From a bacterium (lineage in GTDB: Bacteria; Actinomycetota; Acidimicrobiia; Acidimicrobiales; Bin134), in assembly GCA_026709025.1 (NCBI GenBank), contig JAPOTT010000050.1, positions 79,879 through 128,504 on the forward strand: DNA of 48,626 nucleotides, read 5' to 3'. Of the stretch, positions 2,149 to 9,092 are shown piece by piece. The notes under the pieces are model-generated. The model worked only from the letters and a program-made list of their open reading frames with translations, made no database searches and was not told the DNA's origin. The translations under genes were made by a program, and so were the position numbers. Positions within the stretch are counted from its first letter, which is position 1, and each line of letters begins with the position of its first letter.

Positions 2149-2865
2149 TCACAACACAAAGATCACCGCCCCCATAACTGCGAGCCCGGCAAGCGCCGAC
2201 ACCATGGTCACCGTGGTGCCGATAGCCCTGCTCATCTGATCGATGGCTAAGCGGCGTTCTGACTCCAAGCTTCGCACCGCCCTAGCCAAAGATTTGTCCA
2301 ACAACTCCGAGGATGCCGCACCAGCCCGTTCCGCAGCCACCACCGAGGCCAACAGAGGCTCAACAGGAGAACCAGCAATAGCTCTAGCCACAGCAGGCAG
2401 AGGATCTCGCCCAGCCTCCAATGCGGCTCCAATGGCACCTTGGGCCACCGTGAAGGCCCGCCCACAAACCGTGAGCGCCGAGTTCACCGCAGCAGCATTA
2501 ATAGGCTGACCTGCAGCGGTCAACAAACGCAGCTTACGCATCCACTCCAACATCGCTTGATCTCTTTGGCGGCGATAAGAGCTAGCCGCTAAAGAACGAA
2601 TGGCTGCTGGCAACAGCCAGGGCAGCCATGTTCCGACTATCACTGCCACAGCGAAGGAACCACCCCAGCCCCCAAGAGCCCGTCCCAACAAACCACCCAA
2701 CAACACACCTGCAGAAGATACCGTCCAGCTAACCATGAAGATGTGGTGAGGTGGCCAGCCCATGGCTGCTGCTTGCCTGTCTACCCTGTCGCTGGGCTTA
2801 GGGCTGCTCAAAAGCAACGCAGCCACTCCAATGCTGCCAGAAAGCCCGCTCAACAAAAGCATCAT
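2149..2865 (-). CDS. tadC: TadC-like inner-membrane platform protein
   Basis: This is the second platform protein of the Tad/Flp pilus machine (type II secretion GspF family), which anchors the TadA motor in the membrane. I place the start at ATG 2865, which overlaps the tadB stop as ATGA and gives 238 residues. The longer frame upstream would run into tadB. Hydrophobic segments lie near the N-terminus (MMLLLSGLSGSIGVAALLL), around residues 50-85, and at the C-terminus (GTTVTMVSALAGLAVMGAVI). Between them is the GspF-type soluble helical region (PLPAVARAIAGSPVEPLLAS). Assignment is by architecture and neighbours. Confidence 0.8.
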   Translation of the reverse strand: MMLLLSGLSGSIGVAALLLSSPKPSDRVDRQAAAMGWPPHHIFMVSWTVSSAGVLLGGLLGRALGGWGGSFAVAVIVGTWLPWLLPAAIRSLAASSYRRQRDQAMLEWMRKLRLLTAAGQPINAAAVNSALTVCGRAFTVAQGAIGAALEAGRDPLPAVARAIAGSPVEPLLASVVAAERAGAASSELLDKSLARAVRSLESERRLAIDQMSRAIGTTVTMVSALAGLAVMGAVIFVL

Positions 2866-3677
2866 TGGCTGGCCCTCCACGCTGGTGCCAGAATACGCCC
2901 ACACAAAACCGCCGTAAATATGGCCATAACCAACATAAGCTGTTGCCCGGTTGCGGATGTCAACCACTGGCCAACGTCTTTAGCAGCAAAGCCGGTTATG
3001 GCCAACATGGCTGCGGCCAACACAACCGTCACTGCTATCTGAGGCATCAAGGCGGCCACATGTCGATGAAAATGCCGAGCCGTCTCTGCAAACTCGCTAG
3101 CCTCGCTAGCCAACACGCTAGCTAGGCCCACCCACTGAGCACCTCCCCGAAAAGCCTCAATCAAAACGGTTGACATCATCTCGGCAATGGGTCGGTTGAT
3201 GGTACTTGCAAAGCGATTGGATGCCTCCACCAAGCCACCTGTTTCGCATTCTGCGGCCATCTGTTTTGCAGCCAAACCCACCCTGCCTTCAACCAATGCC
3301 GCAGAATGCTGTATGGCCTGCACAACGGTAGGAGCAACTAAGGCTTGGTTGGCCAAGCTGTTGGTGAGCTGTGCTAACTGATCGGCTTCTTGCAAGCTGT
3401 GCCGAGAACGGGTTTGCACTGCTATTGCCCAAACGCAAATTGCCGCCAAAACCAATATGGATGCGCCGGTGATTGGCCCAAACAGCATCACCCCGACCAC
3501 ACAAGAACCGAGCATCACAAGCCCCGACAGCATGCTTGCAAACCGAATATGGCGGCGCGGTGCCAAAAGCACACCGCTCCAGAGCAACTCTGAAGGGCTG
3601 CCCGCACCGCTTGGCCACCATATCGGCACCATCAACAGCAGCGCTGCGGTTAGCACAACAACTAGCGTCACGCTCAT
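2862..3677 (-). CDS. tadB: TadB-like inner-membrane platform protein
   Basis: This 271-residue GspF-type protein has an N-terminal membrane segment, two more at about residues 48-90, and a pair at the C-terminus (about 210-265). They flank a cytoplasmic helical domain containing the characteristic LTNSLANQALVAPTVVQAIQ and AFRGGAQWVGLASVLASEAS stretches. TadB and TadC together form the platform on which the TadA ATPase drives pilus extension. The start overlaps the tadA stop by four bases (ATGA) and the end overlaps tadC in the same way, so translation is probably coupled. Confidence 0.85.
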   Translation of the reverse strand: MSVTLVVVLTAALLLMVPIWWPSGAGSPSELLWSGVLLAPRRHIRFASMLSGLVMLGSCVVGVMLFGPITGASILVLAAICVWAIAVQTRSRHSLQEADQLAQLTNSLANQALVAPTVVQAIQHSAALVEGRVGLAAKQMAAECETGGLVEASNRFASTINRPIAEMMSTVLIEAFRGGAQWVGLASVLASEASEFAETARHFHRHVAALMPQIAVTVVLAAAMLAITGFAAKDVGQWLTSATGQQLMLVMAIFTAVLCGRILAPAWRASQ

Positions 3678-5332
3678 CTAGCCCCCAGATGCTCGCGCTG
3701 AGTGCCATTGGTTGCTGCGGGCTCACGAAATACCCCATTGGCCACCACAGGCTTGGCAGATGCACCACCGGCCGCTACCGGATTGGCAGATGTGCCATTT
3801 GCTACCACAGACTCATACAAACGTTCAACCAAACCGTGAGGTCGCCCCACTGGAGTGGCCCAGCGCTGGCCCGGCTTTAGTGCCCACAAACAGCGGGTTT
3901 CAACAGAATCGCTACGGTCGTCATAACTAACTATTTGCGACACATCCGATATAACCCGCTCGCCTAGCTCATTGCGTCCCATCCATACCAAAAGGTGTAC
4001 GGCGATGGCTATCTGCTGGCGAGCAAATCGTGGGTCTGCTCCTTCGCTGCAAGCGTAAGACAACAACTTAGCTAGCACGCCCGGGCCAGGCTGGCTATGC
4101 AGGGTTACCAAACAGCCGTTGAGCCCACTGCTCATGGCATCTAGCAGTGCCAAAGTGCCCTCGCCTCTGGTTTCACCAATAACCAGCTTTGAAGAGTTGG
4201 CCCGTTTAGCGTCGCGAATGTGATCGCTCATAGACAGCTTGCCTACGCCGTCGTTGTTGGCCTCTCGTGTGAGGCGTTCAAAGGTATTGGGATGAATCTC
4301 ATACTGAGCGAGACGCAACTCTGGCGTGTCCTCGATGGTGTCGATACGCTCTGAGGGATCCACATTGGCTAGAAGTGCCTGACAAAGCGTAGTTTTGCCA
4401 CCTCCCATAGCAGCCGCTATAACCACATTGGCGCGTACCTTGCCCGAAACCGCTTCCAGCAGAATCTTCTGCAAAGGCACACTAGCTAAGTTGAGGTCGG
4501 CCAAGGTGGCCTTGCCAGCCATGTTGGAACGTAGCACCATGGTGGGGGGCTGACACATGAACGCCTCGGCGTGCAGTCGCCATCTGTCTCCGAGGCGGAT
4601 GTCTAGGCGGCTGTCTAAGATGTCAAAACGTTGCGGATGTCCCCCTGAGAAGCTAGCAAGATGCCTGACCGTTTCAATCAACTCTTCGTTGCTAGTAAAA
4701 GGCGACTTGCGTTTTTCCCGCTCTCCAGATGCCCGATGCACGATCATGTGCTCACCGCCTCTGATCTGAAACTCCTCCACATCATCTGCATCTAACAGAT
4801 CATGCAGACGACTTTGAGCTGCATGAGAGGCTGACCACAGGTGCGTTTCACGATCCAAAGGATCTAAGCGGCGAGGAGCGACTGCTGTCCAGGCCAGTCG
4901 CCGCCCTAAACGTTGCAGGCGTCGGCGGTCGCTGCGCTCTAGGGTGGGTGGCACCCAGAGCATCACTACCTTTTGACGACGAAAACGCTGCTGTGTGGGT
5001 TGATCGTCCGATACCACCACCGACACGATGGGAGTGGCGCGACGGCTCCCTGTGTCTAAGCGAAGTTGCGAGCGCACATCGGTGCTCTCTTCGGTGGTGA
5101 TGCGGAGCACAGCCGCAGCCGAAGCTACCGCCGACTCCAAACGAGTTTGCGGCTGATCATCACCTATCAGCAACACGGTGGGATGCCCAGCCGCAGATGC
5201 ACTGTCTACCTCAGCGGGGGATTGAGCCAGCACTGCTCCTGCTGCTACAGACTCGATGCCCTCCATAACAGCATCCATGAGGTGTTGCATAGGCTTGTTC
5301 TTTAGCCACCTATCGGCTACCACCAAAAGCAT
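3674..5332 (-). CDS. tadA: TadA-family pilus assembly ATPase
   Basis: This is the hexameric motor ATPase of the Tad pilus (VirB11/GspE superfamily). I start it at ATG 5332, which overlaps the upstream stop as TAATG, giving 552 residues. The Walker A motif is AAMGGGKTTL at about residues 308-317, the acidic IEDTPEL motif lies near 333, and the Walker B-like region LVIGETRGEG is near 383-391. About 170 N-terminal residues precede the usual N-domain and could be a degenerate receiver/TadZ-like module (inference). The last ~40 residues are an Ala/Asn/Gly-rich imperfect repeat (VANGTSANP, VAAGGASAKP, VVANGVFREP, AATNGTQ), unusual for this enzyme. It sits upstream of tadB in a coupled operon. Confidence 0.92.
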   Translation of the reverse strand: MLLVVADRWLKNKPMQHLMDAVMEGIESVAAGAVLAQSPAEVDSASAAGHPTVLLIGDDQPQTRLESAVASAAAVLRITTEESTDVRSQLRLDTGSRRATPIVSVVVSDDQPTQQRFRRQKVVMLWVPPTLERSDRRRLQRLGRRLAWTAVAPRRLDPLDRETHLWSASHAAQSRLHDLLDADDVEEFQIRGGEHMIVHRASGEREKRKSPFTSNEELIETVRHLASFSGGHPQRFDILDSRLDIRLGDRWRLHAEAFMCQPPTMVLRSNMAGKATLADLNLASVPLQKILLEAVSGKVRANVVIAAAMGGGKTTLCQALLANVDPSERIDTIEDTPELRLAQYEIHPNTFERLTREANNDGVGKLSMSDHIRDAKRANSSKLVIGETRGEGTLALLDAMSSGLNGCLVTLHSQPGPGVLAKLLSYACSEGADPRFARQQIAIAVHLLVWMGRNELGERVISDVSQIVSYDDRSDSVETRCLWALKPGQRWATPVGRPHGLVERLYESVVANGTSANPVAAGGASAKPVVANGVFREPAATNGTQREHLGAR

Positions 5333-5952
5333 TACCCCACACCCCTCTCGCTGCTCACGCACTGCGGCCACCCTCCGGGCGGTGCCTCCCAGATCCACCA
5401 TTCGTAATCCGCTAAGGTTTGAGCAAGCTGCGGTGTAGCCTGCACGGTTACCTTGAGCTGTTCTGTGTCACCCTCTACGGCGGTGAGGGGCTGAGTAGTG
5501 GTTGCACAACCACCTGGAGAAGACGAGAAGACCGCAATATCCCCAGCTCTGGGGCCCGGGTTGGGCCATAAGCCAGCGCTCACACCAAAGGTCATAAGCG
5601 TGGTTTGCCTGCTGGTGTCGCGGGGTCGCACAGGCCGCAACATTTGGGGCGACACTAGGCTGCCTTCAGGCACGTCTACAGCCGCAACCTGTTCCTCTAA
5701 ATCGGTGGGTACTGCAAACAGCGCTGCCAAATCAGCAGGCACCGGTACAAGTGCATGATCACCCACGGGGTAACCCTCAAGCCAACGTTGAGTAGTGGCA
5801 ACTACTAGCACCTCGGGTGCTTCTTCTCCGTCTAGCGACAACAAGAAGATGGCCACAGCGGTTGCTGCTAACACCCCGAGGGCTGCCAGCAACCGCCAAC
5901 GCAGGCTAACTGGCCAAGTGCTAAGCAACCGCTCGGTGGTTTCTGCTACCAC
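5332..5952 (-). CDS. cpaB: CpaB/RcpC-like (SAF-domain) pilus assembly protein
   Basis: This 206-residue protein starts at a GTG that overlaps the upstream stop by seven bases. One membrane helix (about residues 18-38, WRLLAALGVLAATAVAIFLL) is followed by an extracytoplasmic region with SAF-like features, including alternation of VLVVATTQRW and VPEGSLVSPQMLRPV. CpaB/RcpC proteins stabilise Tad secretion complexes outside the membrane. Position directly before tadA supports the call. Sequence identity to known CpaB is likely low, so the domain call is moderate. Confidence 0.7.
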   Translation of the reverse strand: MVAETTERLLSTWPVSLRWRLLAALGVLAATAVAIFLLSLDGEEAPEVLVVATTQRWLEGYPVGDHALVPVPADLAALFAVPTDLEEQVAAVDVPEGSLVSPQMLRPVRPRDTSRQTTLMTFGVSAGLWPNPGPRAGDIAVFSSSPGGCATTTQPLTAVEGDTEQLKVTVQATPQLAQTLADYEWWIWEAPPGGWPQCVSSERGVG

Positions 5953-7373
5953 AGCGTCACCTGCTTGGTGAGATAGCCGTTAGCTTCGCGAAACCAAGAG
6001 ATATCCTCTGCCACAACCCTTGTGTGCAGGTCGCCTGTTTCAGAGACATACTTGATCACAAGTTGCCACCGCCAAAAGCCTTGTCTGGGTATCAACCAGC
6101 GACAGCGATCGTAGGTAGCCCTCCAGCGGCTATCTAGGCTCAAAGCCTTGCTAGCGGGCTCTGTCCATTGTGGTAAAGCCCCAGGAGAGCACCATACGGT
6201 GGCAGGGTCGCTTCTTGGGAATGCCCTGATGTACCAATGCTGGCGTTGCTGGCTAAGCCTTTGCCACAGCTGAGCTGCTTGACGAGCTTGAGGGGCGGCT
6301 GCCACGTTACCCGGAGCATGCAGAGTACGTAGATCGGCGGGCCAGTGGGGGAGTATTTCCCGCAATGTGACACCTACCTCTGTGGCCTGCCATTTACAGC
6401 CGTTGGTGAGGGCATCCACAACATTCAGGTTTGTGCCAGATTTAAGGGCCACCCAGTGTTTTGCGGCTTCTTTGGGGCCAGAAGCAGCGGTTAAGAAATG
6501 CTGGCCCCCCGGAACCTCGCTATGGTGCTTTGACCCATAGCCGTTGGAGTACGGAACGATGGATTCCCATCGAAGCGCTTGGCGTAATTTTTGGGTTTGT
6601 GAGCTAGGCCACGAGGTTTTGCAAACCTTCTGAGGGGAAGATGGGTTGTTTGGATTAGGTTTTTTGTCTGGGTTTTCCCAGGGACAGTTGTTGGGTATGT
6701 TGTCGTTCACACAAGAGGGAACACAGCCGCCGATAGCGCAAGGATTAACGCGAGGAAAGTTAATAGTTCCGGGTGCAACCGGTGGCTTGGGCGGGGGAGG
6801 GGAGGTAGACACTCCAGGGCTAGTTGGAATCGGCCTAGGCGTTGGGCCCGATGTTGGCTGTGATGTTGGCTGCGGTGTTTGCTGTGATGTTTGCTGCGGT
6901 GCAGCGGTGGGAGAGGGGGCGTGGGTATGGGGTAGCTTGGCACGCAAGTTTCCACTCCACCGATAATTGGTGTTGTGGTGACCACTCCAGACCGTCCAGC
7001 TACCAGCACCTGTACTTTTTGGAGTGCTGCTATGCGGGCCATGACCACAGTTGTTGGTGTTACTACAAGAACTGGTGTAGCTAGACGAGCTGATGGTTAT
7101 CCCACACGTACCAAGCGTGGCGATGGTACAGCCAGCTGGCACTCGGGCCTTGTAGCGAGTCCATCTGTTCACGTGAGTCCAAGTCAACCTGCAGTTGGAC
7201 AAAGATGCGGGGCAGTTCCTACCCGAGCCACTCATTGGAACCCATACATATTGATCGTGGGCGAGTGCTTGTTGGTCAGATAAGTTAACGGCAACCAGCC
7301 CACCAACTAGGACTGCTAGCAACAACAAACCGGTAGCTAGACGCACGCTAACTCGATGCAACATCACCCTCAT
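5946..7373 (-). CDS. Cys-rich secreted protein with Pro/Thr linker, Tad operon
   Basis: This 475-residue protein has a signal peptide or anchor at residues 10-38 (ATGLLLLAVLVGGLVAVNL, then ALAHD). A first Cys-rich module spans about 40-145 (NCPASLSNC, SSCSNTNNC). A Pro/Thr/Gln low-complexity linker covers about 150-205, a four-Cys patch follows (NPCAIGGCVPSC...NNCPW), and a C-terminal Trp-rich domain runs from about 250 to 475. Spacer-separated, disulfide-rich modules suggest a surface or pilus-tip protein. Its start overlaps the upstream lipoprotein stop (ATGA), so it belongs to the Tad operon. I do not recognise any domain; an adhesin-like role is inference from context. Confidence 0.75.
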   Translation of the reverse strand: MRVMLHRVSVRLATGLLLLAVLVGGLVAVNLSDQQALAHDQYVWVPMSGSGRNCPASLSNCRLTWTHVNRWTRYKARVPAGCTIATLGTCGITISSSSYTSSCSNTNNCGHGPHSSTPKSTGAGSWTVWSGHHNTNYRWSGNLRAKLPHTHAPSPTAAPQQTSQQTPQPTSQPTSGPTPRPIPTSPGVSTSPPPPKPPVAPGTINFPRVNPCAIGGCVPSCVNDNIPNNCPWENPDKKPNPNNPSSPQKVCKTSWPSSQTQKLRQALRWESIVPYSNGYGSKHHSEVPGGQHFLTAASGPKEAAKHWVALKSGTNLNVVDALTNGCKWQATEVGVTLREILPHWPADLRTLHAPGNVAAAPQARQAAQLWQRLSQQRQHWYIRAFPRSDPATVWCSPGALPQWTEPASKALSLDSRWRATYDRCRWLIPRQGFWRWQLVIKYVSETGDLHTRVVAEDISWFREANGYLTKQVTLW

Positions 7374-8437
7374 GGCGTTGCCTCAAAGGCACGATACTGG
7401 CACCCAATGTGGGGGTTATCGGGGGAGCGGTTGTCTAAACCAGACTGGCGAGCCCACACATAGCTCAAGAATGCATGAAAGCAAGCGTGCGGGCTGTCGG
7501 GAAGCCCTAAAACGGTGTTTTCATGTGCATGAGCTTGCACAATCTCCAAAATGGGTTTCCAGCATGACGGAAGTGGGTAGCTATCGGTACCGCTCTCAGA
7601 TGCATTTGCAGGGTACGCAACGTTTGGTGTGTTGGATACCAGCTTCTTGCACTGTGCTTGTAGCCACCCTGTGGGGCGGGGTGCTGTTGGGTCGTAACCC
7701 ACCGAGGCACAAGTTGCTAGAGGGCTAAAGCTGTCGTTGTAGAACATGGTGTGGTTCATCACGGTGCTAGACACACAAGCCAAGCCCGCTTCGTTCCACC
7801 AATAGCTAGCTAATAAGTCGGCAAGGTGGGATAATCCGCCCAAACAATCGTGGAAACCTTGAGCAGCTACTTGACCCCTAACCGTGTCTGGTGAATTAGC
7901 CGCTGGTTTTATGTGATAGTCAAGACACTTCTGAAGCCACAATCGGGTATTTGCTGTATCAACGATTTCTCCGTGTTGATGCCCCATCTGCTCACGCAGG
8001 TGTGTTAGTGCCTTGTGTTGGGCTGGCACCTTCAGAACTACAGGTTGACCCTGATCGTCCCAGCCGAATGCTCCATCGCCAAACTGAAAGAACGGGCTGT
8101 TACTAGCAGAACGCTTGAGCGTGGCTATGTCGGGAGTAACAGGTATTTCGGGGGTGAGCTGTGTAACAGGGGTGGCAGGGAGCACATCGGGCGTAGCTGC
8201 TGCGATGGGCACATCGGGTGTGGTGGTTACGTTGGGTGTGGCTGGCACCTGTGTGGCAACAGGTTTGTGGGCGGTATTAGATGCGCCCGCCGCCAACGAA
8301 GGCTGAAACATCGAAACAACAGTTGCCGCTTCAACAGGCGGGGCTGTTCGCACCGAAGCCGATTCAGCCGAGCCACATCCCACGGCGCAAAGAGCCAGCA
8401 CAACAAGCAGGCAGGCAACAAAACGGGTGATACCCAT
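7370..8437 (-). CDS. Putative secreted lipoprotein, first gene of Tad operon
   Basis: The 355-residue protein has a lipoprotein signal with lipobox AVGC at residues 18-21. A low-complexity Thr/Pro/Val spacer follows (residues ~60-105, repeated TPDV and VTPD units), then a Cys-rich domain (about 110-355) with at least eight cysteines and Trp/His patches. An AAAGGAAAAGG ribosome site precedes ATG 8437. It is the first gene after a good promoter-like sequence and overlaps the next gene by four bases. The anchor, spacer and disulfide-domain layout resembles that of the next gene product, so the two may act together outside the cell. Function unknown. Confidence 0.75.
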   Translation of the reverse strand: MGITRFVACLLVVLALCAVGCGSAESASVRTAPPVEAATVVSMFQPSLAAGASNTAHKPVATQVPATPNVTTTPDVPIAAATPDVLPATPVTQLTPEIPVTPDIATLKRSASNSPFFQFGDGAFGWDDQGQPVVLKVPAQHKALTHLREQMGHQHGEIVDTANTRLWLQKCLDYHIKPAANSPDTVRGQVAAQGFHDCLGGLSHLADLLASYWWNEAGLACVSSTVMNHTMFYNDSFSPLATCASVGYDPTAPRPTGWLQAQCKKLVSNTPNVAYPANASESGTDSYPLPSCWKPILEIVQAHAHENTVLGLPDSPHACFHAFLSYVWARQSGLDNRSPDNPHIGCQYRAFEATP

Positions 8438-8660: not shown

Positions 8661-9092
8661 CTAGTATGGTTTGCAGGCCCACTCCGCCCAGGCATCTTGT
8701 TCTGTGACCACCTCGAAGTAGCGAATGAACTTGGCTGCCCGCAAGTTGGTAGCTGGGTCTTCCAAATCTACGGGCTGACCGTCGTGTCCAGGAAAGGCCC
8801 AATCTGGGTCTTGCCAGCCAGTTAGCCAACCCTCGTTGATCTGTAGCAAGCCAACCGATTCTTGACCCCATTCTTCCATATTGCGACTTGTGGGGTCACC
8901 AAACGACTCACACTGAATCACAGCAAGCACATCGTTTACCTCGTCTGCGGGGAAGACCTGCTCGGTGAGGCTCCGCCAACGTTCCACCTCAGGCGCGAAG
9001 ATACTCTGCGAAGACGCTCCCATAGCGGTGAGCGCGCTCAGGGTTACGGCAAACAAGCCAACAAGAATGAATAAGGGTTTGGGTAGGTACAT
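8661..9092 (-). CDS. Secreted lytic-transglycosylase-like (SLT/Rpf fold) protein
   Basis: This 143-residue protein has a signal peptide (about residues 6-27, PLFILVGLFAVTLSALTAMG). It is followed by a lysozyme-fold core with the catalytic-type Glu in IQCESFGDP (Glu62) and the SLT signature SVGLLQINEGW (79-89). Such enzymes cleave peptidoglycan glycan strands between MurNAc and GlcNAc. A small muralytic enzyme next to a pilus operon would fit opening the wall for a surface appendage, but it has its own upstream region and need not be part of that system. The two cysteines (CES..., ACKPY) could form a disulfide. Confidence 0.8.
   Translation of the reverse strand: MYLPKPLFILVGLFAVTLSALTAMGASSQSIFAPEVERWRSLTEQVFPADEVNDVLAVIQCESFGDPTSRNMEEWGQESVGLLQINEGWLTGWQDPDWAFPGHDGQPVDLEDPATNLRAAKFIRYFEVVTEQDAWAEWACKPY

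Follow-up and report, generated by a model that had tools for sequence, protein, structure and literature searches.

A secreted two-part protein and its lipoprotein partner at the head of a divergent Tad-type operon in Acidimicrobiia

Results

The two genes and their products

The window analysed here, a stretch of 48,626 nucleotides, comes from an Acidimicrobiia genome of 2.2 Mb (56 contigs, 95.7% complete), and its minus strand carries, at the head of a Tad-type operon, the two overlapping genes that are the subject of this report: LIPO355, which encodes a lipoprotein (positions 7370-8437), and CYS475, which encodes a two-part secreted protein of 475 amino acids (aa; positions 5946-7373). 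Both rest on their open reading frames, homologs and alignments. The two genes share an ATGA at 7370-7373, CYS475 in turn shares 7 nucleotides with a cpaB-like gene (5332-5952), and tadA-, tadB- and tadC-like genes follow. Among the 20 loci of relatives with a CYS475-type gene, 16 keep the 7-nucleotide overlap. An initial annotation, made from the letters of the window, had described two long Cys-rich exported proteins joined by an ATGA and leading into cpaB-tadABC; the reading frames and the overlap are as it described, and homologs in other genomes of the genus show that the genes are real.

CYS475 begins with a predicted type I signal peptide (residues 1-38, 7260-7373), assigned by eye and by a heuristic rather than by SignalP, with the cut predicted before His39 (codon at 7257-7259). 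The Cys/His-rich N-domain that follows (residues 39-150, 6924-7259), with its CGHxP motif, is the exchangeable part and is here of the kind that we call type A. A linker rich in Pro and Thr, which holds a short cluster of Cys (residues 151-248, 6630-6923), connects it to the constant C-domain (residues 249-475, 227 aa, 5949-6629), in which C3, W21, W59, C78, W80, W122, C176 and W188 (domain numbering) are invariant among 16 diverse rows from several families. The mature N-terminus is predicted to be His in about 19, and Asp in about 12, of the 33 C-domain proteins with a visible signal (41 examined, by eye), and a His terminus together with HxH motifs may hint at metal binding. LIPO355 consists of a signal and lipobox (residues 1-21, LCAVGC, lipobox Cys C21), a Pro/Thr/Ala spacer (about 22-105) and a predicted helical domain (about 106-355) with eight further cysteines (C171, C198, C221, C243, C263, C292, C319 and C346), all invariant in eight aligned sequences including that of the window. 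The signal of CYS475 is thus of the AxA type and that of LIPO355 is a lipobox; neither is of the pilin type.

Joint replacement of the N-domain and the lipoprotein

Of the 21 other genus genomes, 20 have a relative of CYS475 (475 aa), and in the remaining one (G020) the contig ends inside the cpaB-like gene; the count leaves out a match in G029, which has E 0.0027 and three stops. The order C-domain gene, cpaB-like gene, tadA is found in the 21 genus loci that have the gene, if one allows that the cpaB-like gene of L082 and L088 was missed by the gene caller and recovered by tblastn, and that the contig of L091 holds only the start of tadA. In two genomes, G013 (L075) and G019 (L080/L117), the C-domain gene is broken into two reading frames, through a lesion or an assembly error.

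Within this fixed order the two parts of the protein have not the same history. Between proteins with type A N-domains (28 pairs from 8 rows) mean identity is 67% in the C-domain and 56% in the N-part. When type A is compared with type B (32 pairs), the C-domain is still 67% identical and the N-part only 25%, and the values for A against C (16 pairs) are 63% and 26%. These alignments indicate that the front half of CYS475 was exchanged while the C-domain stayed, and hence that the protein joins a C-domain that is constant to an N-domain that can be replaced. The idea that the N-domains are wholly unrelated had to be rejected in part: types A, C and P and one type H have in common a core C-x(4,16)-C-[GA]-H-x-P. 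This core is present in 14 of the 42 N-parts, some of which are truncated at contig ends, and in 0.4% of shuffles.

The lipoprotein gene changes along with the N-domain. LIPO355 homologs are found in 8 of the 21 other genus genomes, and of the 17 genus genomes that could be typed, the nine with a type A N-domain, and no others, have LIPO355, contig ends leaving four further genomes untyped. The first gene of the operon is a different one elsewhere: a 422-aa protein with 15 Cys in four of the five type B genomes (the fifth, G017, is cut by a contig end), a 353-354-aa protein with 9 Cys in both type C genomes, and a PASTA-domain protein in the single type D genome. In a tree built from seven proteins of the machine (cpaB, tadABC and TadE products; 22 rows, G007 only 44% filled), the N-domain type labels require 3 changes. 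Types B, C and D as one clade are rejected on this tree (approximately unbiased test, p-AU 0.005; the group was named after the single-gene trees were known, so that the value does not come from a blind test), which implies at least two replacements of N-domain and lipoprotein. As the types of the two proteins change together, the view that they form a pair, proposed in the initial annotation, is supported.

A single lipoprotein family for all loci had to be rejected. Across loci the mature lipoprotein domains cluster as {A, C, P, P2}, {B, B2} and {E, H}, with F35, T2 and S as singles. The first cluster is held together by hhalign links of 66.5% (A-C), 80.8% (C-P2) and 60% (C-P), the other control pairs seen among the best 12 of 176 reaching at most 2.6%. 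Reversed-against-reversed pairs retain true homology (98.1, 64.3 and 28.2) and were therefore unusable as a negative control; links that arose through the N-termini when signal peptides were retained were not counted. The 352- and 354-aa proteins of L095 are P-type lipoproteins.

Distribution and association with one TadA subtype

The C-domain appears confined to Acidimicrobiia within the draws searched, in keeping with the lineage-specificity suggested initially. Profile A2 found it in 15 of 298 genomes of the order and 7 of 296 of the class, and after the addition of six remote rows in 20 of 395 class genomes and 6 of 184 genera; one of these 20, G584 (C125; E 8e-4, without supporting context), is doubtful and alone in its genus. 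The only carrier among 396 genomes of the phylum draw was that of the window. A pattern scan of genome contigs had 37 matches, of which 19 loci were listed; their titles are Acidimicrobiia, Acidimicrobiales, Candidatus Poriferisocius, marine group bacterium Sva0996 or simply "bacterium". The named relatives are Candidatus Poriferisocius and other metagenome-assembled genomes, and going by the names there may be a link to sponge hosts. In the viral collection 50 stretches matched a pattern and none was a relative.

The TadA-type ATPase of the window is distributed in much the same way. All 22 genus genomes have this subtype. In a blind draw of 148 class genomes (same settings and same listed genomes for both queries) the window TadA at E<=1e-60 and the C-domain profile picked out the same two genomes, a small number of positives, and neither was found in the other 146. 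In a further, chosen and hence not random, set of 30 genomes, this TadA is carried by 12 of the 14 C-domain genomes from outside the genus (E<=2.2e-118), the two others being G489 and G261, the latter with only a C-domain of the mobile type described below, and by none of the 15 genomes without the C-domain (best E 4.9e-38); the thirtieth, G584, with its doubtful match, has no such TadA. Among 139 genomes of the phylum this TadA was found only in that of the window. A TadA-like ATPase of a distant kind (E 1e-23 to 5e-38; loci not viewed singly) is present in nine of the 15 non-carriers, which agrees with the initial claim that standard Tad loci do not carry the pair. The co-occurrence with tadA, a check proposed initially, is strong, but it holds for one TadA subtype only, which the pair can be said to mark.

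Operon positions point the same way. Of 47 C-domain genes from several families, 35 lie within such operons (21 in the genus, the second operon of G014 and 13 others); not counted among the 47 are a 79-aa remnant (G013:C24), two short matches of 57 and 43 positions (G460:C45 and G489:C49:21096) and G584:C125. Outside the genus the C-domain gene stands directly 5' of the cpaB-like gene in nine loci (family f35, L142-L144; f70, L150, L154, L156, L157 and L164; f81, L158), and in four f81 loci (L147, L148, L159 and L160) it is found at the opposite end of the operon.

Mobile and additional copies

One paired copy has conjugation genes on its contig. On contig C32 of G015, the genome whose relaxase was scanned with Pfam, a Cys-rich lipoprotein of 420 aa and a C-domain protein of 830 aa, which contains Cys/His repeats, are encoded beside a TrwC relaxase (44 bits). 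Elsewhere on C32 are genes for a VirB4-type AAA_10 protein (102.6 bits) and a VirD4-type coupling protein (TraG-D_C, 59.6 bits) and, about 40 kb from the pair, an operon of this TadA subtype whose tadA is 61% identical to that of the window. The contig (L165-L171, L093 and L094), which also has a 1799-aa helicase-type gene, seems to be a conjugative element bringing its own pilus-type machine. C-domain genes of the same type occur in G008 (two), G001, G021 and G261; in all of these genomes but G021 the partner gene can be seen. In the N-part of mobile-type proteins there are Cys/His repeats in tandem, each about 70 aa long (GEHxHGxxCExDHPPVPxCVPGL...; L093 5785-8277, L097 6563-8935 and L098 11255-13732). 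One mobile-type C-domain used as a query found no match in the plasmid collection. In G014, a second, more diverged operon begins with the genes for a lipoprotein of 476 aa and a C-domain protein of 895 aa with 42 Cys, and a separate C-domain gene elsewhere in this genome is flanked by two partner genes.

The Tad-type operon of the window

The genes that follow the pair stand in the usual order of a Tad/Flp operon. The TadA-type ATPase (3674-5401, minus strand like all window genes described here) belongs to Pfam T2SSE (E 3.7e-15, 55.9 bits against a cut-off of 24.9), but its best NCBIfam match, the TadA model TIGR03819, gives 134 bits against a cut-off of 373. The TadC-like membrane protein (2149-2967) has a T2SSF match (E 8.1e-5) of 23.0 bits, just under the Pfam cut-off of 25.2, around which its counterparts in L095 (26.3), L150 (26.0) and L144 (21.5) also lie. 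The TadB-like membrane protein (2862-3677), named from its position and the look of its sequence, has no T2SSF match in Pfam, and the cpaB-like gene is named from its position and its homology inside the subtype, a Pfam match to Creatinase_N (E 0.17) being due to chance. Together with the TadE-position proteins, the products of these two genes gave only chance matches under the cut-offs of Pfam and NCBIfam; sub-cut-off NCBIfam matches were to HPr (0.0011, TadB-like protein) and TrbK (0.0073, pilin-position protein). On these results we speak of a Tad-type machine and not of a Tad pilus. The initial assignment to a Tad locus stands as far as the head of a Tad-type operon is concerned; the operon itself is a divergent one and not standard Tad.

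A 64-aa membrane protein without leader or prepilin site occupies the Flp pilin position (1857-2051). It is followed by three TadE-position proteins (1448-1849, 1003-1425 and 590-1051), the first of them leaderless; relatives of the third were also examined. The pilin-position gene, studied through 18 pattern finds in 23 loci, usually begins at an ATG preceded by a Shine-Dalgarno sequence and immediately ahead of the hydrophobic stretch. In the window only 4 codons precede this ATG in frame, none of them a start. An in-frame upstream start is absent from 13 of the 18 genes, three have only distant ones (at least 58 codons), and in L094 and L144 a start lies 15-20 codons before, without a prepilin site. 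The few G/A-x4-E matches, at residues 26-35, fall at or behind the hydrophobic stretch. An Flp prepilin with leader and processing site was not found at the pilin position, the one place in the genome that was searched. Leaderless starts are also seen at 1448-1849 and 1003-1425, and at the same positions in the relatives L072-L094 and L142-L144. A gene directly upstream of LIPO355 (8661-9092) encodes a small SLT-like protein that is exported; its Pfam SLT_3 score is 24.3 bits against a cut-off of 27, and among the fetched genus stretches it was found only in the window and in G016 (64.8% identical).

Searches for known families and folds

Neither LIPO355 nor CYS475 matched Pfam (E<=1), NCBIfam or PHROGs (both E<=0.01), so that a standard adhesin or enzyme domain was rejected, and vWA or any other known adhesion domain was found in neither of them with these libraries. 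Run against PDB sequences, the C-domain and lipoprotein profiles gave only chance matches (best E 0.32 and 0.055). AlphaFold2 was run on alignments of 19 rows (CYS475) and 8 rows (LIPO355). With the resulting models, which are weak, Foldseek found nothing at E<=0.001, and VIA-align reached a best Z of 4.5 for CYS475 (many beta-sandwich chains including FnIII, over residues 252-467) and 4.1 for LIPO355, from which no fold was drawn. The remote homology and structure searches proposed initially have thus been carried out, and gave no family, PDB or usable fold match. In the listed titles and abstract beginnings of open-licence PMC papers we found no report of such a lipoprotein/C-domain pair, and "leaderless pilin" and three like phrases were absent from the matches listed there, which does not clear the unlisted ones; Poriferisocius is named in one listed paper. 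The C-domain is, by its sequence, a lineage-specific family that matches nothing in the libraries searched, and any function given to it is conjectural.

Discussion

What sequence comparison shows is the gene structure of the pair, the constant/variable mosaic, the joint replacement, the association with a TadA subtype and the existence of a paired copy with conjugation genes on its contig. What such an arrangement could do is a different matter, and we propose, tentatively and at somewhat less than even confidence, that the pair is a PilY1-like, non-pilin module at the tip or the surface of the machine. CYS475 would be exported by Sec, and its constant C-domain would dock either on the Tad-type machine or at the end of a filament built by it, leaving the Cys/His-rich N-domain, on its Pro/Thr stalk, to face outward and to recognise a target. 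The lipoprotein, tethered to the membrane through its own stalk, would recognise the cognate N-domain and hold, fold or load CYS475. Exchange of the lipoprotein gene together with the 5' half of the CYS gene could then re-target the same machine. Docking, lipoprotein-N-domain binding, the recognition role and the building of a filament are all steps that we infer. The pilus-tip or receptor role suggested initially would in the same way be a conjecture, about two proteins neither of which is a pilin, beside pilin-position proteins that have no prepilin leaders.

Several observations weigh against this proposal. The link between C-domain and machine is drawn from co-occurrence and from operon neighbourhood, the latter not being contact, and the AlphaFold2 models are poor (mean pLDDT, the predicted local distance difference test score, 52.5 for CYS475 and 60.7 for LIPO355) and match nothing clearly. 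G489, 96% complete, has C-domain genes without such a TadA, and 12 of the 47 C-domain genes (L093, L096-L099, L145, L146, L149, L151, L153, L155 and L161) were not seen beside this TadA subtype. Nine of these 12 keep the upstream partner gene, the other three (L096, L099 and L161) being cut or unclear, and none of them has a known function, so that the wide occurrence of homologs away from Tad with another known function, which would have spoken against the initial reading, was not found. The N-part of G524 (f81) has the CGHxP core, yet its partner comes from another lipoprotein group, and the A and P lipoproteins show no direct alignment (hhalign 2.1%). The pilin-position proteins of the window and its relatives have no prepilin leader, and filament formation is therefore unproven; on the sequences, the subunits lack leaders or else the machine makes no standard pilus. 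Finally, the partner gene of L149 has three SLH stretches, and in the L085 locus the first gene encodes a PASTA domain and another gene an SLH protein (1023 aa, 2744-5815, upstream of a Tad-type operon in G021).

At loci of this last kind, a wall-bound part would fit better than a mobile tip, and the pair might indeed be a fixed part of the envelope, that is, a collar, channel or anchor for the Tad-type machine, with the C-domain facing the machine and the N-domain and lipoprotein fixing it to the peptidoglycan or the surface layer. The long stalks of both window proteins would suit such a part, as would a gene adjoining the cpaB-like gene, cpaB usually encoding a base component. However, the window pair has no wall-binding Pfam domain, and the repeated replacement of exactly the distal parts would be odd for a structural collar. 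We consider a fixed envelope part unlikely, without dismissing it.

The pilin-position proteins, which are not standard pilins, also allow the machine to be seen as a secretion system, in which case the C-domain would be an export tag, the N-part its cargo and the lipoprotein a partner, chaperone or immunity protein. A constant C-terminal domain behind a variable N-part, in several copies in G014, G435 and G489, would be expected of such cargo, and so would the replacement of the partner along with it. Yet the class is one of single-membraned bacteria and CYS475 is already provided with a Sec signal, and neither it nor the scanned relatives contain an enzymatic or toxin-like Pfam domain. We regard secreted cargo as a distinctly unlikely explanation.

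The cognate replacement of lipoprotein and N-domain, and the paired copy whose contig also holds conjugation genes, further recall the lipoprotein exclusion factors known from conjugation. The lipoprotein could in this case sit on the cell's own surface, bind the cognate N-domain of the machines of sister cells and block or mark contact between kin. Such a role in self-recognition or exclusion is, in our judgement, very improbable, given that nearly every genome of the genus has the chromosomal copy and that the surface exposure of the lipoprotein is only assumed.

The tip or surface module that we favour has several counterparts among known pili, to none of which membership is claimed, be it PilY1, the TadG-type tips or a standard Tad system. 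PilY1 has a type I signal, a poorly conserved N-terminal part and a conserved C-domain that binds minor pilins, and in Myxococcus the variable end is placed at the extreme tip (PMC7541494). CYS475 follows the same logic, with a type I signal, a variable N-part and a conserved C-domain, in an unrelated sequence. It differs in its 4-Cys domain of about 230 aa, its Tad-type operon and its cognate lipoprotein; the beta-propeller of PilY1/PilC was not found in CYS475, with no Pfam family at E<=1 and no clear match in the fold comparison made with the weak model. Variable domains have also been proposed for the end of Tad pili, and Myxococcus has interchangeable tips (PMC12075869 and PMC12607857, the latter describing CpaL, a pilin, as a variable Tad pilus tip). 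The tip minor pilins (CpaL, KilLMN and TadEFG) resemble the pair in offering variable domains for the pilus end, but they have prepilin leaders, whereas CYS475 is exported by Sec, LIPO355 is a lipoprotein, and neither a pilin signal nor vWA was found in them. The pili of an IncI2 plasmid, whose variable tips set the partner range (PMC9045228), offer a third likeness: the PilV shufflon adhesin also combines a constant and a variable part, and serves the partner range of a mobile-element pilus. PilV is, however, a minor pilin whose C-terminal end varies by inversion, while in CYS475 it is the N-terminal end that varies, between genomes. As for the standard Tad/Flp system, the window operon shares with it a TadA-type ATPase, a TadB/TadC-like pair, a cpaB-like gene and small membrane proteins, and departs from it by a TadA under the NCBIfam cut-off, leaderless pilin-position proteins and the extra lipoprotein and C-domain genes at its head.

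A wider claim can be framed, which we hold only doubtfully: that CYS475 is the PilY1-equivalent of the Tad-type machines of Acidimicrobiia, with a new docking domain and exchangeable recognition domains, each with its cognate lipoprotein, carried in cassettes on chromosomes and on conjugative elements that have a machine of their own, so that specificity would be swapped as a module, by a machine whose pilins may be leaderless. Target recognition by Tad pili has been worked out in a few Gram-negative systems, where minor pilins form the tip (PMC12075869 and PMC12607857). The clean constant/variable split described here, tied to one TadA subtype, makes partner recognition by a Tad-type machine testable by domain swaps. 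If the proposal is true, the contact specificity of such a machine would be exchanged as a cassette, both on the chromosomes and on the conjugative elements of these bacteria.

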